From Pyrinomonas methylaliphatogenes (GTDB lineage: Bacteria; Acidobacteriota; Blastocatellia; Pyrinomonadales; Pyrinomonadaceae): a DNA stretch of 64,000 nt. A model generated the notes under the pieces. That model was not told the origin of the DNA. It worked only from the letters and a program-made list of their open reading frames with translations, and did no database searches. Below, in pieces: positions 12,390 through 29,750 of the stretch; within the stretch, counting starts at the first letter, position 1; each line of letters begins with the position of its first letter. The stretch covers positions 186,001 through 250,000 of the forward strand of contig NZ_CBXV010000005.1 of assembly GCF_000820845.2 (NCBI RefSeq). Reading direction: 5' to 3'. The position numbers were made by a program, and so were the translations under genes.

Positions 12390-12869
12390 TCTCTAGGGCG
12401 CAAGCGGAATTCACACAGGTTCAGCCATCATAGATGGCGATCTCATTCGTCGCACCTTGCGCGGCTTTTCAGCTGCTCCAAGCCGCACCTTATAACTCGC
12501 ATGGCCCGCCCTGAAGGGCCGATTCGGCGTTGTTGGCTTGATGGCGCAGGTTCTTAAGGCATGAGCGCGCTTGGCCCAAATCGGAAGCGGAAGGGCCTGG
12601 CATCATCTTCCTATCGGCTTTACGGTAACAGAAACAGCATCCTGACTGGTCCAAAACGCCGTTCGCTGGGCCACTAGTGACGACCTCGGGCCACCTTGTT
12701 CGATCGCCAATTGTAATCTAACGGCTACCATGACCGCTTTTAAAACTCCGTAAGCGACTGCCGCCGACGATTCCCGAACTCAGGCTCCCATGAAATCTGC
12801 TGCTCCCGCGTCTCCTTCATCTTGTGTTAGGCTACTCTGGCCGAATCCGAGGTGTGAAGAGAGGGCAGC
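12390..12869. other. 480-bp intergenic region without a recognisable gene
   Basis: No frame here has a start, ribosome-binding site and family-like protein. There are several small GC hairpins (for example gcccgccctgaagggc near 12506). Read on the minus strand there are only short disconnected frames, which may be decayed sequence. No pilin gene (GFTLIE motif) is present. The pilS start lies at the right edge with GAGAGGG upstream. Confidence 0.55.
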
Positions 12870-14667: not shown

Positions 14668-15381
14668 TCAATCTAGATCAAGGCTAGGAAGGATTGAGTC
14701 GGAATCAAATCCTTTCCAATCCCGGTTCGGTTGATTGGGGATATATAGCCGTCGAACGTTGTGGATGAACAACCACTCTTTGCGGCGACTGAGCAGACCT
14801 TCCTCGTACAGTTCTTTCCATAAACGGCTTAGGTGTTCAGGCGTTACGCCTATCAATTCAGCCAGTTCGTATTGCTTCAACGGTAACTTGATTCGCGTTT
14901 CGGATCCCGTTCTCGCTGGCTCCAAGGTTTGGGCGAAGATCCACAACCATCTCCTCAGTCGTAAGCGCGCCGGCAGGGCCATGACTTCGATGGTGCGAGA
15001 GAGTTGATCGAGGACCTCTAGGCTATGGATTTGGTGTAAATAGGTGGATAACGAGGTGCGCTTGGCCAGCGCATCGCGAAATAGATCGACCGAAATGGGG
15101 CGGAGCAGGCATTCGGTCAACGTGATTGCCGTAACTGGAGAGGATCTGTTCGCGATCGCCAAGGCTGCGCCGACAATCCAACCTGGGAATCTAAGCGCGA
15201 TGATCCTTTGCCGGCCAACGCCGTCAAGATGCGTAAGCTTAACAAGCCCGTTTTCGATCACATAGACGTTCTGAGCTGCTTCCCCTTGAGCGAAAAGCTT
15301 CGTCTCTGCGCGATAGCGGCGCGCAACTGTTATCCCTTCGATCTCCTTCAAGATCTCCGAGAAAAGAGTGTGTTGAGACAT
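14668..15381 (-). CDS. Crp/Fnr-family transcription regulator, ExxSR type
   Basis: 237 residues: cyclic-nucleotide-binding-like beta-roll (about 15-125), dimer helix, and winged HTH near residues 170-215. The recognition helix reads GVTPEHLSRLWKEL; the E-x-x-S-R order is that of FNR, which binds TTGAT-N4-ATCAA. There is no N-terminal Cys cluster, so oxygen sensing through an Fe-S cluster is unlikely and the ligand is unknown. A perfect FNR palindrome lies at 19286-19299 in front of a gene of the same block. It is a paralogue of the regulator at 24130-24795 (both share the pattern TAIT-TEC-LRPI). Confidence 0.9.
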   Translation of the reverse strand: MSQHTLFSEILKEIEGITVARRYRAETKLFAQGEAAQNVYVIENGLVKLTHLDGVGRQRIIALRFPGWIVGAALAIANRSSPVTAITLTECLLRPISVDLFRDALAKRTSLSTYLHQIHSLEVLDQLSRTIEVMALPARLRLRRWLWIFAQTLEPARTGSETRIKLPLKQYELAELIGVTPEHLSRLWKELYEEGLLSRRKEWLFIHNVRRLYIPNQPNRDWKGFDSDSILPSLDLD

Positions 15382-15530
15382 TGCCGAGACTCCGTTCTCG
15401 TTCTGCTCATCCCGCGCGACTTCGATACATCAAGAGACAGTTGGCGGATGTGAGGCCATGGCGGCTTAATCATCACAAGTTCCTCGAGAGATCAATCCTT
15501 CACAGCATTCGCGAGAAAACCGTTCGCCGA

Positions 15531-16547
15531 TTATAGACCTGGGGAATCGAGCTTGATCGCATATATGCTCGATGAGCGAGTGTCGAGAAGCAAAAGACGG
15601 TTCGATCTCTCTTCTGCCGCTAAGCTGATGAACAGCCTCTCATTGCTGTCTGGCAACTGAAGTTTGAACTCTTTAAGGATCGTTCCATCTCTACCTAACT
15701 TTATGAGGACATGGCCGTTCAGCAGAATATATCCGCTGTTGCGAGTCGCCGTGATTGAGTGCACGAGTAAGGGGAGCACAAACGAAGCTTCGGGATGTTT
15801 CTCAAAAAATTCCAATGAATAGTTCTTCGATGCCGCTTCATCCATCAAAGCGGATGGGATTCTGAATGAGCTTTCGGCGATCAGCTTCCCAAAGCGAGTA
15901 TACTTTCTGATCAACGGCCAAGAGCGAAACGCGACGAGCAGGTTGTCTTGCCGATCGACCGCGAGCTTTACTCGGTTGATCTCTTGAGGCAATCTCCCTT
16001 CTGCCGCGACGAGCCTTTTCCCGATCGAGCGTAGATATCTGCCGTCTTTCGAAAAGACGTAAATCAACGGCCCATTTTTGGCGGTCACTGGAGCGAGGAA
16101 GATCTCACCCTTAGTGTTCACAGCCACGTTGTCGGCGATAAAGGGTAGCCGGAAGCTTCTGATGAATCTGCCGTTTGAGTTGAAGATTTGGACTTTCGGA
16201 TCGATGGGATCGAGGACATATATAGTTTCGTCTTTATCAACGGCTAGCGCGTCGCTCAGCCCTCCTGATCGAATACGACCTGCGCGGTTCTCTGGACCGC
16301 CAAATTCACGGATGAACCTACCTGCTCTATCGAGCTTGACGATCCTCGAATTCCCGCCATCGAACACATAGACATTGCCTGAAGGAGAGACGGCTAAGGC
16401 CGTGGGCGAAGCAAGTTTGTGAGCCAATCTCTTTTGATTAGCTGAAGCGTAGAAGGGCTCGAGCTTGATCGAGATGGCCGGGACCGGACCGATAACCTGC
16501 GTGGAGAGATGAACGGAGAGTAAGAAGAGGCCCAAAGCGCTTCTCAT
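15531..16547 (-). CDS. Secreted NHL-repeat/6-bladed beta-propeller protein
   Basis: 338 residues with an N-terminal signal-like segment (MRSALGLFLLSVHLSTQVIG). Propeller blades recur as SPTALAVSPSGNVYVFDGGNSRIVKLD, DALAVDKDETIYVLDP, DNVAVNTKGEIFLAP and VKLAVDRQDNLLVAF, spaced about 45 residues. Such proteins act as binding scaffolds outside the cytoplasm; the ligand is unknown. It lies between the 93-residue frame and the Crp/Fnr gene on the same strand, probably co-regulated. Confidence 0.82.
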   Translation of the reverse strand: MRSALGLFLLSVHLSTQVIGPVPAISIKLEPFYASANQKRLAHKLASPTALAVSPSGNVYVFDGGNSRIVKLDRAGRFIREFGGPENRAGRIRSGGLSDALAVDKDETIYVLDPIDPKVQIFNSNGRFIRSFRLPFIADNVAVNTKGEIFLAPVTAKNGPLIYVFSKDGRYLRSIGKRLVAAEGRLPQEINRVKLAVDRQDNLLVAFRSWPLIRKYTRFGKLIAESSFRIPSALMDEAASKNYSLEFFEKHPEASFVLPLLVHSITATRNSGYILLNGHVLIKLGRDGTILKEFKLQLPDSNERLFISLAAEERSNRLLLLDTRSSSIYAIKLDSPGL

Positions 16548-16583
16548 CGGTTATCCACCTCGTACCACAGAAATGATGGAACC

Positions 16584-16865
16584 TCATAGTTGAGTATAAG
16601 ATACGGCTAGCGGTTGGGAGTTACTAGGAGCATAAAGGTAGATGTAATCGAAGCAATCGGGCACTTTGAATGATTTGGAGATCTTATTTTCTCGGTCAAA
16701 GCGAACTCTCCAGCATACCGCGTAGGGAGCGGACGCTTTGAATGATTTGGAGATCCTATTTTCTCGGTCAAAGATGACGGGAGGAAGGATGGAAAATTCT
16801 CTCTCCAGATCAGCGATATTTTCCGCTGTTCTGATCATACTAACCTGCATGATTTGCGATTTCAT
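16584..16865 (-). CDS. Small protein (93 residues) with internal 24-residue duplication, unknown
   Basis: Its ATG overlaps the stop codon of the preceding 586-codon gene (ATGA), which suggests translational coupling. The protein holds FDRENRISKSFK and FDRENKISKSFK exactly 24 residues apart, produced by the DNA repeat at 16664-16773. No family was recognised and no signal peptide is obvious. It could also be non-coding sequence left open by chance, although the 72-bp period keeps frame. Confidence 0.4.
   Translation of the reverse strand: MKSQIMQVSMIRTAENIADLEREFSILPPVIFDRENRISKSFKASAPYAVCWRVRFDRENKISKSFKVPDCFDYIYLYAPSNSQPLAVSYTQL
16664..16773. repeat. Two-copy direct repeat, 38 bp, 72-bp period
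   Basis: Copies at 16664-16701 and 16736-16773 differ at one base. Each unit begins CTTTGA and ends TCAAAG, so its ends are inverted relative to each other, as in many CRISPR repeats. There are only two units and no cas genes, so it is not called a CRISPR. Confidence 0.92.
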
Positions 16866-18622
16866 TTGTTAATCGCCACCAAGTAGCGTCTGATCGCAGC
16901 CCATGTTGCCCACGACCTGAGGAGTTTGTTCTGCAACGATCCGCATAGCTCCAAGGTTCTGAAGTAATCCGCTTCGCTCATTCGATCTAGCAGGGAGAAA
17001 AGACTGGCTGAGTCATCGCTCACGTACAATTCGTTCATGAGATCGTGAACGCTGATCTTGAACGTGATGGCCGATCTGTCGATCTTGAACTCTTCCATCT
17101 TGTTGATCTCTTGGATCGCCGTTTTCGCTTCTTCGAAACCGCGATTGGCATCCAATAGCATCCAAGTTTGAGCGATGATAATCTTCGATTGGACGCGATC
17201 CTGCGCATCTTGTACTCGGGAGCTTTCAGAGATGGCTCGGTCAAGCGTTTCGGAGGCGCGAGCTAGATCGTTTCGCTTGGATGCCACTTTCGCTAGTTCA
17301 CAAAACAGGATGGTCTTCAGTATTGGCTCTTCTATTTTGTCGATGGCATCGTCTTCAAGAATGAGCTCATCGTTGCGTTTAAGCTTCTCTCGAATTTCCC
17401 AAAAGTTGAGATAATCTGTGACCTCCCGTCGCAAAGTCGGATCGCTGATCTTGTCGGCGAGGCGGCGGGCGGCGACGAAATCCTTCTTCGCCAGAAGATG
17501 GGCTTGGATGATGGTGAAGTACTCCAAATCACGCCTTCTAGCGTCAGCGATCTTATCCGCTCGCTGCGCCCTCTCTTCCCATAGCTCTTCGCCTTCTAGG
17601 GATTGGCGTTCGCTCTCGCGCCGCAAGCGGTCTTGTAGCTCGGCTTCCGCCCGCGGCACGTCGGGCAACAGGCTGCTCAGCCTCGCTTGGACCTCCGTTG
17701 CTAAGTCTGGGGTCAAAGCTTGGAATTGTGGGAGGAGGTTTTTGAGCGCGAAATAGATGACCGGTGCTGGGATGTCTTGGCTTGTGGTAAGTTTGTTGAA
17801 AGCGAAGAAGAGGAATCGCCGGGCTAGGGACTCGTTCTTCGGCGGGGCGGAAAGATTGCCGTTGACGTTAGCGGCGTTGTATTGGCCAACGAGAGTGTAG
17901 ACGATTCGCGGCTGTGGCGAGAATAAGTAGGAAGCCAAAATCATCGCCTCGTTCGCCTCATGGAGCGGTCGCAGACTCAGGACCTCGATCGCGTTTGTAA
18001 ACAGATGATCGGCTTCGTCAGGTGACTTCTCGCGAAGCTCAGCGAGAAAATAGTAATGCCGAGGCAAAACGTACTGGCGCACGCTCTCGCGAAAAAGGTA
18101 TGCTCCTGCGAGTTTATCCTTTTGGAACGCTTGAAGGGCAGAGATGAGAAGCAGCTCCGATCGCTCGCTAGAGCCTTGTTGGTTGAGCCTCGCTTTAGAA
18201 TCATCGCCGCTTTTCCCGCTCCACCCATCCAAAAACTCGCGCGCTAGCTTCGGATCGTGTTTGGCCGCGATGCTGATGATCTGTCGAAGAAGTGGGGTGG
18301 CGCGTTTGGAATCTTCGATCCTCTGTTGATCAGAAATGGCATCGAACGCTTGTCGCAGCGTTTGTCGCGCAAAGGTTTCGTCTCTTTCCCACAGCGCATC
18401 GGCAATTGCGGTCAGTAACCTGATTCGCTCTTCGAGCGGTTCGAGCGTGGAGACTTCAACAGCAATCCGCTTGGCGCGGAAGAGCGCATCCTCCTCTTTG
18501 ACTTTGGCTTCGACGATTTCGGGCGTTCGATCGGCTTTGGGACGACTGCGTTGGGCATGACAGAAGGGCGCCGCGATGAGGCTCAACCAAACACCGATCG
18601 CAATCAACAGTGGCGCCCTCAT
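16862..18622 (-). CDS. Secreted alpha-helical repeat protein (paralogue of 21474-23294)
   Basis: 586 residues. N-terminal signal peptide (MRAPLLIAIGVWLSLIAAPFCHAQ), then an almost wholly helical sequence of TPR-like units (for example RIRLLTAIADALWERDETFARQTLRQAFDAI, YFALKNLLPQFQALTPDLATEVQARLSSLLP). Matching units occur in the 606-residue protein (FFALRRLLPFFQQYLPDKLPAVQAQMNLLA). No catalytic motif is visible; probably a periplasmic scaffold. The pair belongs to a family seen in Acidobacteriota but not functionally known. The 93-codon frame follows by ATGA overlap. Confidence 0.82.
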   Translation of the reverse strand: MRAPLLIAIGVWLSLIAAPFCHAQRSRPKADRTPEIVEAKVKEEDALFRAKRIAVEVSTLEPLEERIRLLTAIADALWERDETFARQTLRQAFDAISDQQRIEDSKRATPLLRQIISIAAKHDPKLAREFLDGWSGKSGDDSKARLNQQGSSERSELLLISALQAFQKDKLAGAYLFRESVRQYVLPRHYYFLAELREKSPDEADHLFTNAIEVLSLRPLHEANEAMILASYLFSPQPRIVYTLVGQYNAANVNGNLSAPPKNESLARRFLFFAFNKLTTSQDIPAPVIYFALKNLLPQFQALTPDLATEVQARLSSLLPDVPRAEAELQDRLRRESERQSLEGEELWEERAQRADKIADARRRDLEYFTIIQAHLLAKKDFVAARRLADKISDPTLRREVTDYLNFWEIREKLKRNDELILEDDAIDKIEEPILKTILFCELAKVASKRNDLARASETLDRAISESSRVQDAQDRVQSKIIIAQTWMLLDANRGFEEAKTAIQEINKMEEFKIDRSAITFKISVHDLMNELYVSDDSASLFSLLDRMSEADYFRTLELCGSLQNKLLRSWATWAAIRRYLVAINK

Positions 18623-18800
18623 GGCCGACCTCAGGTCAGGAGATCAGAATCCTGCGTAAACTGTTAGTTCGGTTCGGAGATTCGGGATCTTACCTCAATT
18701 CCTTTACAGTTTGAAACGGTAGACATCGCACCGCGAAGCTTCCGTCGAAGCGGAAGCCTGCGTTGCGCCCAACGTCACTATTTCAATATTTTGAGAGGTG

Positions 18801-18893
18801 GTTGATCAAATGCTCATTTCACTCGCGTGAGACAAACGGACCAAGCTCCCCGCCGGGCAGATGATAGTTGACCGAATGCTCATTTCACTCGCG
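18801..18893. repeat. Two-copy direct repeat, 27 bp, 66-bp period
   Basis: Copies at 18801-18827 and 18867-18893 match at 25 of 27 positions (core aatgctcatttcactcgcg). They lie between the 586-residue gene and the Cys-rich gene, the second copy 22 bp beyond the stop of the latter. Confidence 0.88.
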
Positions 18894-18915
18894 AGCATTT
18901 CTAAGCCGAAGGCGC

Positions 18916-19206
18916 TCAGGGAAGAATTGGGCCCGGACCGGGCGAGACCCTCTCCCCGCAAGAGGCGCTTCCTGCCGGTCTGATGATGCTCGGATCATTA
19001 GGATCGCTAACGTAACATTGAACCGAGCATCCAGCATAAGAAGCGTATTCGCCATCGCACCCGGCATCAAACTGGCAAAAGATCCCATCTTGTCTGTTGA
19101 TCCTGCAACTAAACCACGACGCGCGAGTGGCGGATGTTTCAGCGATCAAAATCATTAACAAGCAAAAGCCGAGAGGGGCAAATAGGCGAAAGACGGCACG
19201 TCTCAT
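18916..19206 (-). CDS. Small secreted cysteine-rich protein (96 residues), unknown
   Basis: Signal peptide-like N-terminus (MRRAVFRLFAPLGFCLLMIL) followed by a short domain with Cys residues in SCRINRQDGIFCQFDAGCDG, AGCSVQCYV and ASCGE, likely disulphide-bonded outside the cytoplasm. GAGGG lies eight bases before the ATG. A perfect FNR-type palindrome is 80 bp upstream. A different frame of 67 codons (18885-19088) overlaps but lacks these features. The Cys-rich C-terminus of the 199-residue protein at 23399 is a possible analogue in the second module. Confidence 0.7.
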   Translation of the reverse strand: MRRAVFRLFAPLGFCLLMILIAETSATRASWFSCRINRQDGIFCQFDAGCDGEYASYAGCSVQCYVSDPNDPSIIRPAGSASCGERVSPGPGPILP

Positions 19207-19285
19207 GACATTACCCTCGTAGCGAATTTTGGAATAGTTTCTTCCGAGTTTTTCGAGACGTTAAACTCCGCCGTTCTGTTCGTCA

Positions 19286-19299
19286 TTGATCTAGATCAA
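19286..19299. promoter_or_regulatory. FNR-type operator TTGAT-CTAG-ATCAA
   Basis: Perfect 14-bp match to the FNR consensus TTGAT-N4-ATCAA, 80 bp before the start of the Cys-rich gene. TTTAAC (19265-19260 on the minus strand) lies 20 bp further on, close to the spacing of an activator site at about -40. The candidate regulator is the ExxSR Crp/Fnr protein at 14668-15381. Confidence 0.7.
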
Positions 19300-19402
19300 G
19301 TCGATTCTGGATTCAATCTCATCAAGTGAGCGGGCCAACGCATCCGAACGTTTGACGCGCACCTCGATGCGACGAAACGCCTCTTCTTGGGCCGAAGATA
19401 AG

Positions 19403-19512
19403 GCGGGAAAGGTAAGCGGCAAAAGGCCGATAATGTTAGGTAAGTCGCGCTTGCTCGCTCAAATAATCGTTGTAAGCGGGGAAGGTAAGCTGAAAGGGGC
19501 TGATAATGTTAG
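19403..19512. repeat. Two-copy direct repeat, 37 bp, 73-bp period
   Basis: Copies at 19403-19439 and 19476-19512, about 85 percent identical, sharing the end gataatgttag. They stand directly before the VWA pseudogene remnant. Confidence 0.85.
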
Positions 19513-19808
19513 ATCACATCAAGGGGAACCAATCGGACTCTCCGACGCGCGCGCGTTGCGTATCCCCATCGGCGCGGCGACCGCTGCCCCGTTCAACCCT
19601 TATGTGCAGATGATCGAAGCATTGCGCCGCTTTTCAAGGCACGGGCGCGCCCGTGAGCATCGCGCCTTTCTTGCGCGAGATCGGCGCCTCGCTGCAACGT
19701 CAACTCGCCATCACCTATCTTTCGACGCACTCGAATCGAGGCTTTCACCGAATAGGGATCCGGGCGGAGGGCCTCGAATTGCGCTATCCGCCCGGTTACA
19801 CCAGATAG
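19513..19808 (+). pseudogene. 3' remnant of a VWFA-related secreted protein gene
   Basis: One frame reads RIPIGAATAAPFNPYVQMIEAL and, after a single-base frame change near 19640, another reads GAPVSIAPFLREIGASLQRQ, QLAITYLSTHSNRGFHRIGI and ends LRYPPGYTR at TAG 19806-19808. The tail (..QLAITY...H.I.I...) resembles the C-terminus of acidobacterial VWFA-related proteins, for example DIAAQYLITYTPRR...RHIEIAPRR in the intact gene at 49625-50737. There is no start or 5' part. Confidence 0.6.
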
Positions 19809-19835
19809 GTTGCTTCCGGCGCCTGAGCGCTTGCG

Positions 19836-20855
19836 TCACGCTTCGTCCGCGCGGCGTTTGGGAAACGCGAGCGACAATCCGACCGACGCCACGATGACGG
19901 CGAGGATGATGCCGAGCGACCACTGAATGGGGAGCTTGCCGCCGTAAAAGTCGTTGAGCCAAGCCATCTTGAGCCCGACGAAGATGAGCACCGCGGCCAA
20001 CCCGTAGCGGAGCAAGTGGAACTTGTCGACGGCGCCAGCGAGCAGAAAGTACATCGCGCGCAGACCCAGAATGGCGAAGACGTTCGAGGTGAAGACGATC
20101 AGCGGTTCGTCCGTCAAGGCGTAGATGGCCGGCACCGAATCGACGGCGAAGATGATGTCGCTCGTTTCAACAAAGAGCAGCGCGATGAAGAGCGGCGTCG
20201 CGTGCCAGACGCCGTTCAGTTTGACGAAGAAGCTCTGCCCGTGAAATTCCGGGGTGATGGGAAACAAGCGGCGAAAGAGCTTGATTATGGGATTGCCGCT
20301 CGGATCGATGCCTTTGTCCGGCGCAAAGAGCATCTTGATTCCGGTGAAGATGAGGAACAGTCCGAATAGCACCACGATCCAGTGGTACTGCAGCAACACG
20401 GCTCCGAGCGCGATGAAGATGGCGCGAAAAACGAGCGCTCCGATGATGCCGTAAAAAAGGATGCGGTGCTGGTATTTCGCCGGGATCGCGAAATAGCTGA
20501 AGACCAGCACGAAGACGAAGATGTTGTCAACGGAGAGCGATTTTTCGACGATGTACCCGGTGAGAAATTCGAGCGCCGTTTGCCAAGCGGCCGCTTGCGG
20601 ATCGAAACCGGGGATGGACATCAAGCGCGCATCTTGCGCAAACTTCCAGAGCGCATAGCGGTAGAGAAGAAGATTGAACGCCAGCGCCAGCGCCACCCAA
20701 ACGATGCTCCAGATGGTCGCCTCGCGGAATGAGACCTCGTGCGCTTGGCGGTGAAAGACGCCGAGGTCGAGCGCGAGCAGGAAAAGCACGAAGCCGACAA
20801 ATGCGGCATAGAACCACCAGTATTCGACGAACGGGAAAAGCTCTACAGTCATCAT
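19836..20855 (-). CDS. TerC/Alx-family membrane protein, likely manganese exporter
   Basis: 339 residues, the long Alx-type form, with about nine membrane spans. Family residues include ALDLGVFHR near residue 30 and the conserved acidic pairs VEKSLSVDNIFVFVLVFSYF and LFVETSDIIFAVDSVPAI in membrane spans, which bind metal in the family. Alx/TerC proteins relieve manganese stress and help metallate exported proteins. The yybP-ykoY riboswitch upstream supports Mn-dependent control. Two possible start codons (20855 and 20852) lie side by side. Confidence 0.92.
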   Translation of the reverse strand: MMTVELFPFVEYWWFYAAFVGFVLFLLALDLGVFHRQAHEVSFREATIWSIVWVALALAFNLLLYRYALWKFAQDARLMSIPGFDPQAAAWQTALEFLTGYIVEKSLSVDNIFVFVLVFSYFAIPAKYQHRILFYGIIGALVFRAIFIALGAVLLQYHWIVVLFGLFLIFTGIKMLFAPDKGIDPSGNPIIKLFRRLFPITPEFHGQSFFVKLNGVWHATPLFIALLFVETSDIIFAVDSVPAIYALTDEPLIVFTSNVFAILGLRAMYFLLAGAVDKFHLLRYGLAAVLIFVGLKMAWLNDFYGGKLPIQWSLGIILAVIVASVGLSLAFPKRRADEA

Positions 20856-20924
20856 CTGTTAATTCGGTCCTTTCGCTTTCGTCTCTGACGTCGAGGCCGA
20901 TTGGCCTTCGGTCCAACGAGCGCG

Positions 20925-20973
20925 CGAAAAGACGAAAGACCTTTTGCGCGCTCGTCGCGCGGCAAAAGGTCTT
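20925..20973 (-). terminator. Expression-platform terminator of the terC riboswitch
   Basis: Perfect 12-bp stem (AAGACCTTTTGC with GCAAAAGGTCTT, at 20973-20962 and 20947-20936) followed on the minus strand by TCGTCTTTTCG. It lies between the aptamer and the terC start, fitting a transcription-terminating riboswitch. Confidence 0.75.
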
Positions 20974-20984
20974 GATCGTCGAAC

Positions 20985-21085
20985 CCTACTGGTTCTTACC
21001 GGTAGGCCGGATCGCGCATTGGCGACCGTCTTGACGACCTTACCGGACCACCTTGCGGGGTGATCTACTCCCCTTTTGGGCGAAG
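20985..21085 (-). ncRNA. yybP-ykoY (Mn2+) riboswitch aptamer
   Basis: The minus strand carries AAAAGGGGAGTAG (GGGGAGTAG at 21073-21065), the hallmark of this class, followed by a hairpin GATCACC-ccgcaa-GGTGGTC and then the second conserved part ending CCGGCCTACCGG. It starts just after a consensus promoter and precedes a terminator and a TerC/Alx gene, the commonest partner of this riboswitch. Identified from motif and context; no covariance model was run. Confidence 0.85.
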
Positions 21086-21090
21086 CAGAG

Positions 21091-21119
21091 ATTCTACGGA
21101 GCGACGCCAGGTGGGTCAA
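21091..21119 (-). promoter_or_regulatory. Promoter of the riboswitch-terC unit
   Basis: TTGACC (21119-21114), 17-bp spacer, TAGAAT (21096-21091). The predicted start near 21084 is directly before the riboswitch. Confidence 0.8.
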
Positions 21120-21242
21120 GCTTTTCGCGCCGCGGACGGTGAGACGACCGGTTTCGGCGAAAGCCGACGTCCTCGCTCGGTTAGCTCGATCTCGCGGTTC
21201 AGCCCGCTACTCTGCAACCTTCACGCGCACGAACCTAGTTGG

Positions 21243-21338
21243 TCGCTTGACGCGCACTTCGATGCAGCGAGACTCATACGAGTACGCCCTATACAAGGTT
21301 TCAATCCCACGCTTGACGCGCACTTCGATGCAGCGAGA
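21243..21338. repeat. Two-copy direct repeat, 30 bp, 66-bp period
   Basis: Identical 30-bp copies at 21243-21272 and 21309-21338 (core cttgacgcgcacttcgatgc). A diverged third relative lies at 19350-19390, on the other side of terC, and similarity runs on past the repeat (ttcttgg...ccgag). GTTTCAATCCC, reminiscent of some CRISPR repeats, occurs once between the copies. Confidence 0.88.
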
Positions 21339-21473
21339 CGCCACTTCTTGGATTGCCGAGAAAGCAGCGAGAGGGCAAAAAAGATGACGTTGGCCGCGGC
21401 AACGCCTTGCCGACGACGATCATGCTGGCCTCGCTTGAAAGAAACTGTTCAGAGCGCTCGTCGGTTCTGTCGA

Positions 21474-23294
21474 TCATCCCTTTTTCAGTTGACTCGCTGC
21501 GACTGCAAGCAACGACAGTGATCTTTGTTGCTCGTCTTTGATGTTCCTCGCTAAACTGGTCGCTTGGTACAGATCATCGAGCGCAAGTTGCGCAAACAGC
21601 GCGGCCAAGCTCAAGCTCGGCGCCTTCAATTTGTAGATCGAGATTTCGTCATCGGTCTTCGTCAGAATCGAGATTTCGGGCTCGACCTTGAAGAAGGTTG
21701 CCGCGTTAGCCGTTTCCACCGCTTCGGCGGCGATCTGCCAAGCCCGCAGTTTGTCATAACCGAAGTAGGCGTTAGCGATCGCGCTCAGGGCCGGAGCTTT
21801 CCATTGTTCCTCGCGGCTCGCTTTGCGCGCTTCGGCGAGGGCCATCTCCAGCAGTTCGCGCGCTTCCAGTCCTCTCTCTTTGCCGAGCAGCGTCGCGATC
21901 TCGGTCAGGAACCAGATTCGATGTAGTGGCGCGATGTTGGCTTTCCTGAGCAGTTCCATCGCCTTGTCGGGCTGGCGTTGTTCGATGAGTTTGCTGATGA
22001 GCGCCACCTCGACGAAAGCCAATATCTGTTCCTTCAAAGAAGGATCGGAGATCTGTTCCGCGAGCTCGCGAGCCTTCAGCTCTCCTTTCATCGCGGCGGC
22101 ACGCGCCGCCCGCGAGCGGGCAAGATCAGCCGCGCGAACGCCGTCGGTTTCGGTGGAGTTCGCGTCGCTCTCCGGTTTGATCCCTTCTTCAGCGAACTGT
22201 TCCGTTCTTTCGCGCGCGCTCGACGATGCGTTCTGCGCAAGCAGGTTCATTTGCGCTTGCACGGCGGGGAGTTTGTCGGGCAGATATTGCTGGAAGAAAG
22301 GTAGCAGCCGTCGGAGCGCGAAGAAAGCGCTGGAGATCTCGGCGGTCGTCATCGTTTGCGGCGGGCGCAAGAGGATTTGCGCTGCGGCCAGCAGAAAGTC
22401 GCGCCGCAATCCTTCGGGTATGTTCCAGTTCTCCTGCGGACGGTCGAGTTTCTGGACGATTGTGCCGTTGGCGGTCACCGCCGCGAGCACGTTGGGAGTG
22501 AAGACATAAGAAGAGAGCAGAGAGAGCGAAGCGGCATCCGCCATCGGATCGGACAGAAGCCTTTTGACGAGCGCTGAAAAGCGCGCATCCGCGGCGGCTG
22601 GCGCAGCCTTTCGCAGCGCGATCAAGAAGATCACGCCTTGCATTGTCGGTCTGGTCAAGGCCGGATCGGCAACCGCCACGGCACGCTCGGTCTCGCCCTT
22701 CTCCAGCAGATACAGGGCCAGCTCCAGCCTTCGCTCGGTCGCCAAGTCGGGATCGGTCGGATCGAAACTTCTATTACTCTGCTCCTCTTCTTCCGGGGTT
22801 TTGTTCTCTAGGCTCGCGAGCAATTCTTCGGCCAGTTTTCTGTCGCGCAGCGCAACCGCTTGCAGGATCTCACCGCGCAAGTTGGGCGGCAGCGGAATGA
22901 AGCCGATCTTGCTTTCTCCGGAGAAGAACTTCTTTTTCTTCTCTTCGATCGCCTGCCGCTCGGCATCTTCGATCTCGGTCGCCATCTTCCAAGCTCGACG
23001 GAAGATGGCCCGTGATCTTTCCGGATCGGCTTCCCATAGCAGATCGGCAGCCTTAATTTGCACGCGGACGCCGATAACGCGATCCTCGTATTTCACCGCT
23101 TCGTCCGCCAGCGAGACGATCAGTGAAAGCGCGAAATCGCGCTTGGCGCGTCGTTCGAGTTCCTGCGCAGAAGGAGGAGCCTTCTGCCTTTCGGCGGATC
23201 GAGGGGGCTGCTTCGGGGTGGCGGTCGTTTGACCGAGCGCGACTTGGGCAAGAGGGGAGAAGATCGCTGCCATGATCAGATACCAAACGCGCAT
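21474..23294 (-). CDS. Secreted alpha-helical repeat protein (paralogue of 16862-18622)
   Basis: 606 residues with a signal peptide (MRVWYLIMAAIFSPLAQVALGQ), a charged linker and many helical units such as VQIKAADLLWEADPERSRAIFRRAW and ELAEQISDPSLKEQILAFVEVALI. The last can be aligned with RLADKISDPTLRREVTDYLNFWEI in the other paralogue. The function is unknown; a periplasmic or lipoprotein-like scaffold is plausible. It follows the 199-residue secreted protein and a Crp/Fnr gene on the same strand, repeating the gene set of 14.7-19.2 kb. Confidence 0.82.
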   Translation of the reverse strand: MRVWYLIMAAIFSPLAQVALGQTTATPKQPPRSAERQKAPPSAQELERRAKRDFALSLIVSLADEAVKYEDRVIGVRVQIKAADLLWEADPERSRAIFRRAWKMATEIEDAERQAIEEKKKKFFSGESKIGFIPLPPNLRGEILQAVALRDRKLAEELLASLENKTPEEEEQSNRSFDPTDPDLATERRLELALYLLEKGETERAVAVADPALTRPTMQGVIFLIALRKAAPAAADARFSALVKRLLSDPMADAASLSLLSSYVFTPNVLAAVTANGTIVQKLDRPQENWNIPEGLRRDFLLAAAQILLRPPQTMTTAEISSAFFALRRLLPFFQQYLPDKLPAVQAQMNLLAQNASSSARERTEQFAEEGIKPESDANSTETDGVRAADLARSRAARAAAMKGELKARELAEQISDPSLKEQILAFVEVALISKLIEQRQPDKAMELLRKANIAPLHRIWFLTEIATLLGKERGLEARELLEMALAEARKASREEQWKAPALSAIANAYFGYDKLRAWQIAAEAVETANAATFFKVEPEISILTKTDDEISIYKLKAPSLSLAALFAQLALDDLYQATSLARNIKDEQQRSLSLLAVAASQLKKG

Positions 23295-23398
23295 CGTTTT
23301 CTGCTCTCTTGAGCGGGTCCAAGTGGACCGAAATATGGGAAGGCGGTTCTCCGTTGTTCGTAAATTTTACCCGATCTCCTGGAAGAAATAGCAAAAGA

Positions 23399-23998
23399 TT
23401 ATCTGCCAATCACGCAGACTATTCCGCAGTCTCCATACCTTATACACCTGTTAGGGTCTGGGCAGCATACTGTGTTGCCATACGAGCCGCAACCGGGAAT
23501 TTGGACGGTAGCCGAAATCTTCTCAAACGGATCGTCGGCGTAGTTCCTTCTAGCCCCAACGATTTTGAGCATTAACGGCGCTTCGTTCGCCTTTCTCTTT
23601 AGACCAATGAGCTGAGAAAGATCGAGCGTTTCGCCGCGATTAAGCACGCGAGAAAAAAGAAGTCTCCTCGGAAGCGTATTCAAATCCGAGCAACGCTCGA
23701 CTTTGCCAATATCGCCGAAGATGGCTGAAACTTCTACTCTGACGCCGTCGCTCTCAGCTATAGGCAGAATCTCCAATCCTGATACTTTCTCGGAGTTTAG
23801 TTCACCTTTTTCGACTCTGATGATTCCAATCAGCTTTTTGTCTCCTGTAGCAGCAGGAAGATAGAAGGCGTTAGCGAGATTGATTTCGATGCCCAATGGG
23901 CGATGGTCTTGCCTATTTGCAGGGTCTTGCGCTTTCGACCATCCGATAACGAACAGAAGCGCAACCAGTAGCGACGCAAGCAGCCTTCTGATCGCCAT
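23399..23998 (-). CDS. Secreted protein with Cys-rich C-terminus, unknown
   Basis: 199 residues from ATG 23998, which has GGAGG eight bases upstream; GTG 24007 would overlap that site. Signal peptide MAIRRLLASLLVALLFVIGWSKAQ. The middle is a beta-rich domain (IGIIRVEKGELNSEKVSGLE). The last 30 residues hold six Cys (GCGSYGNTVCCPDPNRCIRY, GDCGIVCV). No family was recognised. Two tandem FNR-like boxes lie 73-108 bp upstream, so control by the neighbouring Crp/Fnr protein is likely. Confidence 0.72.
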   Translation of the reverse strand: MAIRRLLASLLVALLFVIGWSKAQDPANRQDHRPLGIEINLANAFYLPAATGDKKLIGIIRVEKGELNSEKVSGLEILPIAESDGVRVEVSAIFGDIGKVERCSDLNTLPRRLLFSRVLNRGETLDLSQLIGLKRKANEAPLMLKIVGARRNYADDPFEKISATVQIPGCGSYGNTVCCPDPNRCIRYGDCGIVCVIGR

Positions 23999-24070
23999 TT
24001 TCAACACCTCCCGTGGATTCAGAGATTCTCTCGCCAGTGAGCTTCTTACACCGATGCTTTTCTCCGGTCA

Positions 24071-24106
24071 TTGCACTGGTACAAGTCCGTTTTTGATCTA
24101 GTGCAA
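24071..24106 (-). promoter_or_regulatory. Two FNR-like boxes spaced 22 bp centre to centre
   Basis: On the minus strand TTGCA-CTAG-ATCAA (24106-24093) and TTGTA-CCAG-TGCAA (24084-24071). Both are near-palindromes built on TTG-N8-CAA, exactly two helical turns apart, in front of the 199-residue secreted protein gene and just after the gene for the SxxSR-type Crp/Fnr regulator. Confidence 0.55.
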
Positions 24107-24129
24107 TTCGCCGCATGCGCCGCTGGTTT

Positions 24130-24795
24130 TCAAAGACCCGGAACTTCCTGATGCCAGAGTCTCTGCGGATCGAAGACGACGATCCAGCCCATTCTCCTTT
24201 GAATGAGGCCCTGTTGCTCCAACCTTTTGAGCATCCGGCTGAGATAAGAGGGCGTCACCGCGATCAACTGCGCTATCTCCTCTTGTTTCAAGGGAAATTG
24301 AAGGCGAATGCCGCGAGACGTCTCGATGCTCTCCGTCTGTGAGATTAGGTCCCAAAGCAATTGTTCGAGCCGTTGTTGAGCCGTACATTGACTCAGTTGA
24401 ATCGTGCGGTCAATCTGCTCGTAGACTTCGCGGCTGAGCATCTCAAGAAGGTAACGCGAGATGGCGACATTGGTCTCGATGAGCCGGAGCAAGAGCCTGG
24501 CGGGGATCGGGCGCAATCGGCATTCCGTCGCGGTGATGGCCGTCACCGGAGATGGCAGCCGCAGAATCACCGATGCGGCGCCGAGCACCCAGCCCGGAAA
24601 GCGCAACGCGACAGTCACTTCTTGTCCGCGATCGCCGAAACGGACGAGTCGGATCAAGCCTTGTTCGATCAAGTAGGTTTCGTTGACCGCCGACGCTTGC
24701 CCGAAAAGTTCCGTTCCAGCGCGATACCTTTGCGCTGGCTTCACCCCTTCAACCGCACGCCAAATCCTCAAAAATTCGAGCTTCTTCGCTGGCAT
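24130..24795 (-). CDS. Crp/Fnr-family transcription regulator, SxxSR type
   Basis: 221 residues from ATG 24795, preceded by CAGGAG; the longer open frame upstream overlaps the next gene and is not used. Beta-roll sensor domain, dimer helix, and HTH with recognition helix AVTPSYLSRMLKRLEQQG, where Ser replaces the Glu of FNR. No Fe-S Cys cluster. The protein is a clear paralogue of the regulator at 14668. The changed helix agrees with the altered half-sites (TTGCA instead of TTGAT) found immediately downstream. Confidence 0.9.
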   Translation of the reverse strand: MPAKKLEFLRIWRAVEGVKPAQRYRAGTELFGQASAVNETYLIEQGLIRLVRFGDRGQEVTVALRFPGWVLGAASVILRLPSPVTAITATECRLRPIPARLLLRLIETNVAISRYLLEMLSREVYEQIDRTIQLSQCTAQQRLEQLLWDLISQTESIETSRGIRLQFPLKQEEIAQLIAVTPSYLSRMLKRLEQQGLIQRRMGWIVVFDPQRLWHQEVPGL

Positions 24796-24835: not shown

Positions 24836-27800
24836 TTACGGGATTGTTGGATTGGCGCGTTTCGGCGAGACGTTCGATGTCGAACCGTTGCGCCGAAAAT
24901 CGCGCGCGTTGTCGTTCGTATCGGCACCATCGGGGCTGCGTATGAGATCATTGGTCGCGCCGCTCGTGAACGCGAAGATCGCCCCTTCGCCGTAAGAGTT
25001 GAACGGCGCGGCGGGCGGCGAGCTGCCGCCTTGATAAGCGAAACCATCGAGTTTCGTGCCGCCGATTTCGATCTTGATGGCGCCGGTCGTTCCGTTCAGG
25101 TCCAGATTGCCCGCGCCCGCGTTGTAATCAGCCGCGACGCCGAAAGTCTCCGCGCCGTTGACGACGAGGAAGTAGCTGCGCGGTCCGATGATGACCGTGC
25201 CGCTGCCGACGCTGCCGGGAAGCTGCACGGTCGCAGGCGCGTTGCCCGCGCCGCTCGATCGGAAGGTGATCGTCAAACCGCTGATGTCGAGCGGTTGGTC
25301 CGTCTTGTTGAGCAGTTCGATGAAATCGTTCCGCGTTTCAGCGGTCGAAGAAGAGAACGCGACCAACGCTTCGTTGATGACGATTTGGCCTGGAGCAGGA
25401 ACCGCTGGGCCAGCAGCGCGCACCGTCAGCGCGGACGAGTCCTCGAGCACCGCGCCGTCGTCCGGGCGAGTGTAACGCGCGACGACGTTCACGCTTCCGA
25501 CGCGATCTGCGCGCACAGTGATGGTGTCGGCGGTTTGCGCGATGACGGTCGCGACGCCCGCCGGTTGCGCGTCGCGCAGACTGAAATCGAACGCGATGCC
25601 GGGAACTTCGCGCCCTTGCGCGTCGCGCGCCGTCGCCGTGAAGGTGACGCTGTTGCCGATGCCGACTGTCGCCGCGTCGGGGTTGAGATCGACGCTGGCG
25701 ACCACAGGGGTGATCGTCAAAGTCGCTACCGCCTCTTGACCGCCCGCACGCGCGCGAATCGTCACCGTGCCAGCAGCGAGCGCCGTCGCGGTCGTGCTCG
25801 GACCAGCGGTCGGCGCGAGATCCGCTCGATTTGCGTCGCTCGCGCTCCAGATGAACGAGACATTCGAAAGCTCTCTCTCCGCGCCGTTCGCGACCGTGAA
25901 AGCGCGCGCCATGAAAGTCGCGCTTTGGCCGGTGCGTGCGGAAGCGGAAGCAGGGATGATTTCGATGCGCGCGATCGGCGGTGAGCCGAAAGGCGTCCCA
26001 TCAGCGCGCGTGCCCGGCGAAAAGAGGCGGCCTTGCGCGTTGACCGCATTAGCGTGCGCGGTGAGTTCGCCGCCTGCCGAATCGATGCTCGCATCGGGCG
26101 AGCGCGTGAGCGATTGATCGGATGGCGCGACTGGCCCACCGCTCGACCCGTAGCTTTGCGAAGCGACCGTCACGTCTGCGCCGCCAACTCGCAAGCGGAC
26201 GTGCACCGCATCGCCGCCGTCGTTCAAGCCGAGCGAGTTAGCCGTGAAGATGAGCGCGCCGCCGAAAGCCGGATCGTTCCTCGGCGCTGCGCCGCCGCCA
26301 AAGATCACCGCGGCGCGTCCGGCATCGAGCCGCGTGTTCGCCGGGAAAGTGAAGCGCGTGGCGGTTGAATCGGAGATCGTGACGTTCGAGATGTCGACCG
26401 GCTCGCTCGACGCGTTCACAAGTTCGATGAATTCGTCATCGGCGCTGTTGCGCGTGCCGTCGCGGTTCGCATCGCCTTCGATGTTGCGCGTCGCCGGATC
26501 GTCGGGTGGAACGTCGGCCAGAATCTCGTTGATGACGAGCGGAAGACGGACTTCGAGCGTCGCTTCGTCCGAGATTGTGCCGCCCATACCATCGGGCGCG
26601 CTCACGCGCACTTTCACGCGCCCGACACCGACGCCGCGCGCCTCGCCTTGCGTGTTCGCCGTCGCAATCTCGGCATCGGTGGTGGACCAGTCGAAACGCA
26701 CGCCGGTGATCTCTTCGCCCCGTTCATTGAAAGCGCGCGCCGCGAACTGCCGAACGTTTCCGCGATTGACGCTCGCTTGTTTCGGTTCGATCTCGAGACG
26801 TGTGACGCGCGGCGGAGCGGGCGCGACCGAGACCGTCGCTGCGCGCGTGATGGTCGTCGCGCCATCGCTTGCCGTGAGCGCGAGTTGCGCCGTCCCAGCG
26901 CGAAGCGCGCGCACGGTGGCCGTCGCTTCCGCCCCGACGACGTTGACCGCGGTGACGGTCGCGATCGCGTCATCGCTCGATGCGAAAGCGAAACTGGCGC
27001 GTTCGAAGGGGCGTCCGTACTGGTCCAGCGCGCGCGCCGTCAAAGTCGCCGTCTGCCCTTCGACGAGGGCGAGCGCGGGTGGTTCGAGGCTCACGCTCGC
27101 TAGGCTCGCGGCGCGCGCGATGAAGAACGAACCGTCGGCGCGCGTGCCGGGCGAAAAGCGCCTTCCCGCCGCTCCTTGCGCCGAAAGGTGGCGCACGAAC
27201 GCGCCCGCGATATCGGGCGAGCGCGTGACCGATTGGTTGATGCCGCTTCCGGCGAAATCATCCTGCGGCGTGCCGTAGGCGAACTCGTCGATGATGGCGC
27301 CGGTTGCGTCGCGCACGGTGATGAGCGCGCCGCTGTTGTTGAGCGACAGGTTGCCCGCAGATGCGGCGACGACTTGCGCGCCGCCGAAGGCAGGGTTGCG
27401 CGCATCGAAATTGCCGCCGCCGAAGACGACGATGGCATCGCCCGCCGCGAGTTGCGTCCCAGCGGCGAACACGTGGCGCACGCTCGCCCGCGCGTCGCCA
27501 GCGGCGCGCACTTCTACGGTCCAATTGCTCAGATCGAGCGCGTCGCCCGACGCGTTGACGAGTTCGATGAATTCGTCATCGCTGCCGCTGCGCACGCCGT
27601 CGCGATTGGCGTCGCCTAGCGCGCCATCCGGCGGATCGAAAAGCACTTCGTTGATGACGAGCGCGGATCGTCTCGCGCCGGAGAAGGTGATGGTCGCGCG
27701 GTTGCTATTTCGCCCGTCGGCAACGATTTCCACCGTCGCTGGTCCAGCGGGTCGCGCGTCGAGCGCGACGTTTATCTGGTCCAATCCGGGAAGGCTTGGG

Positions 27801-29512
27801 ACGGGAACGAGGGTCTCGATCGGCGCGGGCCGTCCGTTCAAGAGGACGGCGAACGATCCGGCGCGTCGCACGCCGGTCGCAAATATCGCCAGCCGCCGCG
27901 TCATCGGTCCGAAGGGGGAGCGCAAGAAGGTATCGGCATCGAGCGCGATCGCTTCGCCACTCCGATCCGTGAACAGGGCGGGAAGCGTGCGGATGATGTT
28001 TGCCATGACGCGCGTTTGAAAGCCGTCTGGATTGGTGACGACGATCTCTGCCGGACCGATCTCGGTTTCGGCGGGCACGTGAAAGTTCACCTGCGTCGGC
28101 GAGACGTAAAAGAGCTGCGCCGGTCGCCCGTTGACCGTGACGGTCACGCCGCCTAAGTTCAACGGGAAAGATCCGTCCGGTTGGCGTTGCGCTTGCAGGG
28201 CGTCGAAAGCGAAATTGTTCCCGGTGGCGATGGCGATGGAATCCGGCGCGAGCAGATTGACTGGACCGCTGCCGAGCAGCGGCGCGCTCGTGATCGTTGC
28301 ATCGGTCGAAAAGGGCGGGCGCGCCGGAAGCGTGGCCGTGTAGATTTCGCTGTTATTCGCCAACGCAGCATCGGACACTGGACCGGAGAGGAGGCGCGCG
28401 AAATTGAAAGCGATGATGGTGCCGTCATCGCTCAGAGATGAAATGACTTCGGCGGCGGCGCCGGACGGCGCGCGCGTGACGGGGAACGCGCTTCGCGTCG
28501 GAAGGTCATAGACGTAGAGCTCCACGCTCCCATCCGAATTGAATCCGCCGAAGTTGCGCCGCGTCGCGAAAGCGATGCGCGATCCATCGCCGCTGATGGT
28601 CGCATTGAACGGGACATCGTTTTGGCGTGCGGTCAAAGAGGTGATCTGGCGCGTCAATCGATTGCGCCCGTCGAAAAGAAAGACTTGCGTCGCGCTGCCC
28701 ATTCGAGCTTCATAGACCATGCGCCGCCCGTCGTCGCTGATGGCGCGTCCGCGCGTGAGCGCGAGCCCTTCGAGGTTGGCGGCGATCGTCTCTTCTTCGC
28801 CGCTGGCGAGATCACGAAGCACGAGATCGCATGCCGCGGCGCTCGTGCCTTGCGGGGCGAGATCGCGCACGTAGGCGAGATGCGATCCGTCGCCGCTCAA
28901 TTTCGGTTCGAGCGAGCCGCGGACGCCCGCCGTGTTTGTTAGCTGCGAGAGGCTTTGCGTCGCCGCGTCGTAGATGAAGATCTCGAAGTTCATGTCCGGA
29001 TTTTGGCCGGTCAGATCGCGGTTGGAATAAAAAGCGATGAGCCGCCCGTCGTCCGAGATTGAAGGGGCGAAACAGCCTTCTTGCGTGCGGCGCGAAACGT
29101 CTGTTGGCGATGTGTGGGTGATTTGGCGAAGTTGTGAACCGTCAAATAGAAAGATCTCCAGATTGCGATCCCTGTTTTGGCCCAGCGGATCATCAGCGGT
29201 CGAAAATGCCACGCGCCGCCCGTCCTCTGAAACCGCCGGAGTGAAAGCGCGCGTGGCGGCTATCTGACTGAAGGCGCCGTTCGCGCGTATGACGCGAAAA
29301 CTTGGCGGACCGCCAGCGCCAGCGATATCCGCGGACGATTCGAAGACGATCGTCTTCCCGTCACCGCTCAACGTCGGGTTGAGGTTGAGAGCCGTTTCCG
29401 GAGTCGAAGTGACGCGCCGTATCGCGATCTCGGTTTTGAACTCCAAAGTTGGCGTCTGTTGGAAGCTGGCCCACAATAGGACAAAGATGAGGAAAGGTCC
29501 GATGTGAGGCAT
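24836..29512 (-). CDS. Giant secreted protein: beta-propeller, TIGR03437-like, three lamin-tail and several Ig-like domains
   Basis: 1558 residues from ATG 29512 (AAAGGAG upstream), with signal peptide MPHIGPFLIFVLLWASFQQ. Residues about 40-430 are TolB/PD40-like propeller blades (NPTLSGDGKTIVFES, PSISDDGRLIAFYSNRD). A TIGR03437-like segment follows (VTVNGRPAQLFYVSPTQVNF). Three lamin-tail (LTD) domains begin LVINEVLFDPPDG, LVINEILADVPPDD and IVINEALVAFSS; the first two carry an EF-hand-like GDANRDG loop. Between them are bacterial Ig-like (Big_2) domains (LEIEPKQASVNRGNVRQFAARA). Probably a cell-surface adhesin-like or matrix protein. It sits alone on its strand. Confidence 0.85.
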   Translation of the reverse strand: MPHIGPFLIFVLLWASFQQTPTLEFKTEIAIRRVTSTPETALNLNPTLSGDGKTIVFESSADIAGAGGPPSFRVIRANGAFSQIAATRAFTPAVSEDGRRVAFSTADDPLGQNRDRNLEIFLFDGSQLRQITHTSPTDVSRRTQEGCFAPSISDDGRLIAFYSNRDLTGQNPDMNFEIFIYDAATQSLSQLTNTAGVRGSLEPKLSGDGSHLAYVRDLAPQGTSAAACDLVLRDLASGEEETIAANLEGLALTRGRAISDDGRRMVYEARMGSATQVFLFDGRNRLTRQITSLTARQNDVPFNATISGDGSRIAFATRRNFGGFNSDGSVELYVYDLPTRSAFPVTRAPSGAAAEVISSLSDDGTIIAFNFARLLSGPVSDAALANNSEIYTATLPARPPFSTDATITSAPLLGSGPVNLLAPDSIAIATGNNFAFDALQAQRQPDGSFPLNLGGVTVTVNGRPAQLFYVSPTQVNFHVPAETEIGPAEIVVTNPDGFQTRVMANIIRTLPALFTDRSGEAIALDADTFLRSPFGPMTRRLAIFATGVRRAGSFAVLLNGRPAPIETLVPVPSLPGLDQINVALDARPAGPATVEIVADGRNSNRATITFSGARRSALVINEVLFDPPDGALGDANRDGVRSGSDDEFIELVNASGDALDLSNWTVEVRAAGDARASVRHVFAAGTQLAAGDAIVVFGGGNFDARNPAFGGAQVVAASAGNLSLNNSGALITVRDATGAIIDEFAYGTPQDDFAGSGINQSVTRSPDIAGAFVRHLSAQGAAGRRFSPGTRADGSFFIARAASLASVSLEPPALALVEGQTATLTARALDQYGRPFERASFAFASSDDAIATVTAVNVVGAEATATVRALRAGTAQLALTASDGATTITRAATVSVAPAPPRVTRLEIEPKQASVNRGNVRQFAARAFNERGEEITGVRFDWSTTDAEIATANTQGEARGVGVGRVKVRVSAPDGMGGTISDEATLEVRLPLVINEILADVPPDDPATRNIEGDANRDGTRNSADDEFIELVNASSEPVDISNVTISDSTATRFTFPANTRLDAGRAAVIFGGGAAPRNDPAFGGALIFTANSLGLNDGGDAVHVRLRVGGADVTVASQSYGSSGGPVAPSDQSLTRSPDASIDSAGGELTAHANAVNAQGRLFSPGTRADGTPFGSPPIARIEIIPASASARTGQSATFMARAFTVANGAERELSNVSFIWSASDANRADLAPTAGPSTTATALAAGTVTIRARAGGQEAVATLTITPVVASVDLNPDAATVGIGNSVTFTATARDAQGREVPGIAFDFSLRDAQPAGVATVIAQTADTITVRADRVGSVNVVARYTRPDDGAVLEDSSALTVRAAGPAVPAPGQIVINEALVAFSSSTAETRNDFIELLNKTDQPLDISGLTITFRSSGAGNAPATVQLPGSVGSGTVIIGPRSYFLVVNGAETFGVAADYNAGAGNLDLNGTTGAIKIEIGGTKLDGFAYQGGSSPPAAPFNSYGEGAIFAFTSGATNDLIRSPDGADTNDNARDFRRNGSTSNVSPKRANPTIP

Positions 29513-29516
29513 GGAC

Positions 29517-29617
29517 TGATCTCCTTTCGACCCATGGCGGAAGGCGATACCCGACCCGGGCTTCGGCGAGTGTCGCCTGCTGATCCCCTTTCGACTCGTA
29601 GCGCGGAAGGCGATGCC
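29517..29617. repeat. Two-copy direct repeat, about 35 bp, 64-bp period, at a gene 5' end
   Basis: Copies at 29517-29551 and 29581-29617 (second with a 2-bp insertion) share tgatc-cctttcgac and gcggaaggcgat-cc. The first copy contains the ribosome-binding site of the giant secreted protein. Confidence 0.85.
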
Positions 29618-29750
29618 TTGCGCTCTCCGGTGAAGATGCGCCGCCCATTCTAGCTCTTTTTCGCGCGAAGGCAAGAGACTTCTGCCGCGGAAAAGGAGGA
29701 TGGCTGCTTGTTGTTTAGAGCGGGCCTAAGCGCTGGGTGGTGGAAAATGA

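Follow-up and report, generated by a model that had tools for sequence, protein, structure and literature searches.

Two sets of genes (A and B), each combining a Crp/Fnr-type regulator with an exported cysteine (Cys)-rich protein and an exported helical repeat protein, lie at positions 14,668 to 24,795 of a 64,000-nucleotide stretch of the Pyrinomonas methylaliphatogenes genome (the window; contig NZ_CBXV010000005.1, positions 186,001 to 250,000). Strain K22 is described in PMC4644332 as an obligately aerobic thermophile; the genome comprises 3,788,560 bases. An earlier note on this DNA had placed the genes of both sets on one strand, and all of them proved to be open frames on the minus strand at the places given there. 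Transcription runs from 24795 to 14668 through Crp B, Cys B, Helical B, a TerC gene, Cys A, Helical A, a 93-amino-acid (aa) frame, an NHL gene and Crp A. Gene order thus differs between set B (Crp, Cys, helical) and set A (Cys, helical, 93-aa frame, NHL, Crp), and the TerC gene (20855-19836, minus strand) separates the two. Whether a protein is exported was assessed with a simple hydropathy rule applied at several possible starts, in place of a trained predictor. The features, with lengths and distances in aa, nucleotides (nt) or base pairs (bp) and related loci cited by L number, are as follows:

14668..15381, minus strand: Crp A, Crp/Fnr regulator of 237 aa with one Cys; Pfam cNMP_binding and HTH_Crp_2; recognition helix TPEHLSR
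15531..16547, minus strand: NHL beta-propeller protein with a signal-like N-terminus; Pfam NHL above cut-off; 50% identical to its L209 counterpart
16584..16865, minus strand: 93-aa open frame overlapping the end of Helical A; no family; may not be a real gene
16862..18622, minus strand: Helical A, predicted exported helical repeat protein; no Pfam or NCBIfam family; paralogues in the genome
18916..19206, minus strand: Cys A, small predicted exported Cys-rich protein of 96 aa; its relatives in L209, L089 and L093 each immediately precede a helical gene
19286..19299, minus strand: exact Fnr-type palindrome TTGATCTAGATCAA, its centre 86 nt before Cys A
19308-19321, minus strand: decayed second box, 22 bp upstream of TTGATCTAGATCAA
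21386..21406, minus strand: terminator-like hairpin after Helical B; weak evidence, since the region holds 11 such sites against 12.9 expected
21474..23294, minus strand: Helical B, predicted exported helical repeat protein; AlphaFold2 model with a mean predicted local distance difference test score (pLDDT) of 83, nearly all helix
23399..23998, minus strand: Cys B, predicted to be exported and ending in a Cys-rich tail; 199 aa, or 202 aa if started at the GTG at 24007; related proteins in L207 and L208
24071..24106, minus strand: putative tandem operator in front of Cys B, with the degenerate boxes TTGCACTAGATCAA and TTGTACCAGTGCAA spaced 22 bp apart and followed by TGAC
24130..24795, minus strand: Crp B, Crp/Fnr regulator of 221 aa with two Cys; both Pfam domains; recognition helix TPSYLSR
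24836..29674, minus strand: large PD40/LTD/Big_2 protein (Pfam), upstream of Crp B, a neighbour outside the module

Both regulators scored above the Pfam cut-offs for cNMP_binding and HTH_Crp_2. They share 43% identity over 207 residues (E 5e-56) and, with same-genus fragments, cluster in a tree of 23 regulators (Shimodaira-Hasegawa-like approximate likelihood ratio test, 85). Judged by sequence, Crp A and Crp B are sister paralogues. Regulators of the Fnr, FixK and DNR types bind the Fnr box TTGATNNNNATCAA, and the 4Fe-4S cluster with which Fnr senses oxygen needs four Cys. With one and two Cys, respectively, Crp A and Crp B fall short of Fnr proper, and neither can carry an Fnr-type four-Cys iron-sulphur cluster. 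The NCBIfam model for Crp, the receptor protein that binds cyclic AMP, gave 36 and 48 bits for the window regulators versus a cut-off of 266. Crp A and the regulator of L067 share the recognition helix E-x-x-S-R.

An exact Fnr-type palindrome precedes Cys A, and a degenerate tandem precedes Cys B. The genome holds 15 exact TTGATN4ATCAA sites; by our own gene caller, 12 fall inside genes (one of them at the gene's very end) and three outside, the Cys A box among the latter. Three near-matches to TTGATCTAGATCAA occur in the window, all of them in these two sets, where 0.18 would be expected. The better box before Cys B matches at 8 of 10 positions, which alone is not significant (p 0.13). Class II activators follow a placement rule relative to the –10 element, and the corresponding place reads TAACGT and TAAGAA in the window.

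Related loci show a similar arrangement. A box matching at 10 of 10 positions within 250 nt past the crp gene was found at 4 of 17 subfamily loci, compared with 1 of 820 control genes (p 6e-7). In L067, two intact boxes 22 bp apart precede a frameshifted Cys peptide, the second box being centred at –85, and L137, L139 and L141 repeat this arrangement past the crp gene with small departures. The class II place holds the –10 elements TATAAT and TACAAT in L067 and L137. TGAC follows the box in both window sets and in L067, L137, L139, L141 and L136.

From the sites already seen in L067, L137, L139 and L141 we wrote a tandem pattern and searched 160 genomes of the class. Allowing up to three mismatches, it gave nine sites in seven genomes, none of which is the host genome; the reversed control gave no sites. 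Finds beyond the source sites came from genomes G366, G384 (two contig ends), G430 (first box already seen) and G275 (contig C34). The two G384 sites are the contig ends L247 and L248 and probably represent one site. A Crp relative lies upstream of six of the nine sites: G366 (in broken pieces), G312, G305, G430, G275 (contig C4) and G505. Downstream of the tandem, L067 has its Cys peptide and L137 an exported Cys-tailed protein. L246 has a broken relative of the L137 protein (E 2e-15 and 2e-11 in two frames), and L248 encodes a relative (50% identity) of a different exported protein from L067, its Cys stretch lying in a second frame. Nothing was recognised after the tandem in L249, and the L139 sequence ends too soon. 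On the L247 side of G384, a transposase-like frame (by eye) occupies the place expected for Crp, and no Crp relative was found there. Together, these data suggest that the Crp/Fnr subfamily tends to carry its own Fnr-type operator between the crp gene and an exported neighbour, often a Cys-rich one.

A profile built from four regulators (A2), all beside helical genes, matched 26 of the 160 class genomes at E 1e-25. Among the 19 new loci fetched with it, several of which are short contig ends, only L138, L140 and the same-genus fragment L135 had a helical match. The host genome itself holds four Crp relatives, none of which adjoins either of the two helical copies outside the window. Two further loci show regulator genes in unusual settings. 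L053 has a crp fragment (7626-7898) before the set and a full, near-identical crp gene (11813-12544) behind it, giving the impression that the regulator was copied around the set. In L142 (9445-14176), a Crp of the wider subfamily lies beside a radical SAM gene, a Cys-rich frame (12063-12233, 51 aa or longer) and an ABC transporter, and this locus looks like a modified-peptide cluster.

Helical A and Helical B are related at a distance (24% identity, E 2e-14). The host genome carries two additional copies, on contigs C3 and C1, giving at least four in all. Pfam and NCBIfam hold no model for Helical A or Helical B, nor for Cys A or Cys B, which fits the earlier note's view of a system with no described function. 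A profile of the four copies matched 34 of 396 genomes of the phylum, comprising 34 of the 49 from the window's class and 0 of the 347 others; as scoring covered three candidates per genome, the true counts may be higher. Among named genomes, a first scan with Helical A as the query gave no matches; in all, 39 loci were obtained, labelled Pyrinomonadaceae, Blastocatellia, Chloracidobacterium or merely Acidobacteria. A signal-like N-terminus was seen in 60 of 69 helical rows, in agreement with the secretion that the earlier note had suggested. The AlphaFold2 model of Helical B, from a 31-row alignment, predicts a two-part alpha solenoid. Residues ~45-370 resemble HEAT-like chains and 380-606 TPR-like ones, with Z up to 10.8, a likeness that may be generic. 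Foldseek returned a single match at E < 0.001, a designed repeat protein. In L101 (3355-8755), three helical genes stand in a tandem row.

What lies next to the helical genes was assessed over the 69 helical frames, in 63 loci, found by the helical search. A small exported Cys-rich frame on the same strand, within 800 nt upstream, accompanied 12 of the 69, compared with 15 of 483 control genes (p 2e-5), and the enrichment persisted with the window excluded (10 of 67, p 3e-4). The count of 12 includes the L067 Cys frame, although it is broken by a frameshift; with the shadow frame L048, which we removed on the helical side only, it would be 13. An earlier tally of 15 of 72 took in three loci from the Crp search. 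A Crp/Fnr gene within 4 kb was far rarer, at 4 of 69 frames: the two in the window, L053 and L067. No Crp relative was found at the 39 named-genome loci, which come mostly from one clade and many of which lie on short contigs. Helical genes thus have a Crp/Fnr partner only occasionally, and we reject a tight coupling of the two. The earlier note had named in advance, as the finding that would refute its reading, helical homologues occurring mostly apart from Crp/Fnr genes, and that is what we found.

Still, the combination itself recurs. A regulator, an exported Cys-rich frame and a helical gene stand together again in L053, L067, L138 and L140, a point in favour of the earlier note's reading. 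In L138 and L140, whose genomes belong to a different genus within the same family, set B is repeated together with its upstream neighbour (PD40/LTD relative, Crp, Cys-rich exported protein, helical), the PD40/LTD relatives being 38% and 47% identical to the window protein. L209 mirrors set A, with a Cys gene, a helical gene, a frame lacking a Pfam match and an NHL gene; no Crp gene lies within its 12 kb. Judged by eye, the frame between its helical and NHL genes had seemed thioredoxin-like, an assignment we rejected since neither Pfam nor a BLAST comparison with L053 and L067 gave a match for it. The idea that the 93-aa frame of the window is a thioredoxin-gene remnant is likewise unsupported; the profile used for it contained the L209 frame by construction. 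No AhpC-TSA or thioredoxin-fold gene was identified in the window sets. At 1482-2213 of L065, a thioredoxin-like protein near a helical gene, below the Pfam cut-off, has extra terminal Cys, as if fused to a Cys tail.

The Cys-rich neighbours of helical genes form several groups with no detectable kinship, and Cys spacings vary from group to group. Cys A and Cys B show no mutual similarity (best E 0.93). The relatives of Cys A are those of L209, L089 and L093, which each directly precede a helical gene, and a same-genus fragment in L136. Cys B shares its plan of a front part and a Cys-rich tail with proteins of L067, L137, L138 and L140; its structure, predicted from the single sequence, had a pLDDT of 43 and is useless.

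These comparisons bear on how the two sets arose. The earlier note had called them paralogous modules, which is borne out for the regulators and, weakly, for Helical A and Helical B, but not for Cys A and Cys B, which lack any match to each other. For this reason, and because Helical A and Helical B occupy separate parts of a tree of 69 helical rows and so are no sister pair, we reject duplication of the whole set. As far as sequence can tell, the two sets share a kind of composition, not one duplication event.

In G481, of the same genus, set A apparently replaces the core of set B, as reconstructed from two contig ends (L135, L136), with junctions at 24353/19311 and 14346/21816 in window coordinates. 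Identity between these contigs and the window is 96-99% at this place (73% at Cys A), compared with 68-84% elsewhere in G481, a difference that transfer, contamination or misassembly could each produce. A 43-nt repeat has three copies in the genome, at 19348-19390, 21243-21285 and 21309-21351. They flank TerC on both sides, one copy preceding Cys A and the other two following Helical B. A 27-nt direct repeat (18801-18827 and 18867-18893, 66 nt apart) lies between Cys A and Helical A, and the 93-aa frame carries a further repeat, D4, with a 53-nt unit repeated 72 nt apart.

The reading we tentatively prefer, at somewhat short of an even chance, is a locally regulated envelope module of the Blastocatellia. 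In it, the regulator would turn on the gene for an exported and probably disulfide-rich protein, and the solenoid would act as that protein's partner. The regulator would bind its operator and activate the adjoining exported gene; the Cys-rich product would be exported and form disulfides, set by the thioredoxin-fold protein where present or by general enzymes. The helical HEAT/TPR-like protein would be exported too and would bind, shield or present the Cys-rich protein. The order of set B (Crp, operator, Cys B, Helical B) fits this proposal directly; in set A the operator precedes Cys A, and Crp A is situated at the opposite end of the set. The regulatory half of the envelope-module reading appears fairly well supported, and the biological role is one that we infer.

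Several observations weigh against this reading. Within 250 nt past the gene, 11 of the 17 subfamily loci, Crp A included, score 7 or less. In the window, neither set fits the three-mismatch tandem pattern, as only one box of set A is intact and both boxes of set B are degenerate. Three tandem sites (the two of G384 and that of G275 contig C34) have no Crp relative in the available sequence, and no exported neighbour was recognised at the C34 site. The tandem targets of L145 (a cupredoxin-propeller protein) and L141 (an exported frame) are not Cys-rich. No clear box was found in L138, L140 or L053 despite their regulator, Cys-rich and helical genes; these regulators may read another sequence, because their recognition helices (TPTYLSR, TPTYLCR and TPQYVTR) are unlike TPEHLSR of Crp A. 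The Cys B relatives of L207 and L208 have neither a helical nor a Crp neighbour. AhpC-TSA or thioredoxin-fold genes beside helical genes exceed the Pfam cut-off only in L053 and L067, those of L006, L065 and L095 falling below it.

A more far-reaching version of the envelope module, which we consider improbable, would make it a private Blastocatellia cassette, pairing the Crp/Fnr subfamily and its tandem operator with swappable exported disulfide-rich cargo and a solenoid that serves as a dedicated envelope chaperone or immunity partner. Alternatively, the genes might serve antagonism, the Cys-rich proteins being fast-diversifying Sec-exported antimicrobials and the helical protein protecting the producer or keeping the cargo inactive. 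Such a role could explain why one helical family stands beside several Cys-rich groups that are unrelated to each other, why some of the cargo joins a front part to a Cys-rich tail, and why the regulator is specific to the neighbourhood. We nevertheless regard it as unlikely. Pfam and NCBIfam gave no bacteriocin or toxin match, PADLOC gave none for the helical or Cys-rich window proteins at the thresholds used, and no processing or export genes were recognised beside the window sets. None of 22 Cys proteins fits the Cys expression for bacterial cysteine-stabilised alpha-beta (CS-alpha-beta) defensins as quoted in PMC11561630. Nor did the Cys proteins give a halocin C8-type match in NCBIfam or Pfam, in which the presence of a halocin C8 model was not checked. 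Membership among defensins, halocin C8 proteins or defence systems found no support.

Envelope stress offers a third possibility, one that we doubt about as much: the Cys-rich proteins would bind metals or absorb oxidising equivalents, and the regulator would answer redox, nitric oxide or metal stress. The Fnr-type box, the thioredoxin-fold neighbours at some loci and the Cys content are all consistent with such a buffer. It is harder to reconcile with Cys spacings that vary between groups, the lack of a metal-binding family match and regulators with too few Cys for an Fnr-type cluster. Least probable is that the helical protein has an unrelated envelope job and is merely often beside Cys-rich genes: 57 of 69 helical frames lack an upstream Cys-rich frame, 65 of 69 lack a nearby Crp and the neighbour label switches at least 11 times on the helical tree, but this leaves the enrichment of Cys-rich neighbours over control genes, the recurring order of Crp, Cys and helical genes in four other loci and the placement of the Cys A relatives directly before helical genes.

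Under the envelope-module reading, an uncharacterised exported family of soil and hot-soil Acidobacteriota gains a predicted operator, target and partner, and very probably does so in a type strain that is in culture. If the cargo view holds, it would reveal a new group of exported proteins rich in disulfides, within a phylum about whose interactions with other microbes little is known. Our literature search, covering titles and the beginnings of abstracts, found nothing on these gene sets.

The module is reminiscent of known systems in each of its parts. Like Fnr, FixK and DNR regulators, its regulators have both Pfam domains, and Crp A and L067 have the E-x-x-S-R helix; an exact box lies before Cys A. 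Unlike those regulators, they have one or two Cys and score far below the NCBIfam cut-offs of the named members, and the box precedes the adjoining exported gene, in relatives as a tandem spaced 22 bp apart. The predicted two-part solenoid of Helical B recalls TPR/HEAT scaffolds, whereas the helical family has no Pfam repeat and no specific structural relative, and among the 396 phylum genomes it occurs in this class only. For proteins of the Cys B kind, the closest known counterparts are halocin C8-type proteins, which have a Cys-rich tail. Cys B and the proteins of the same plan in L067, L137, L138 and L140 likewise appear to join an exported front part to such a tail, but they are bacterial, with a regulator nearby and often a helical partner. 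In sum, regulator and box both belong to known types; what is new is a tandem operator beside variable exported cargo with a putative solenoid partner.

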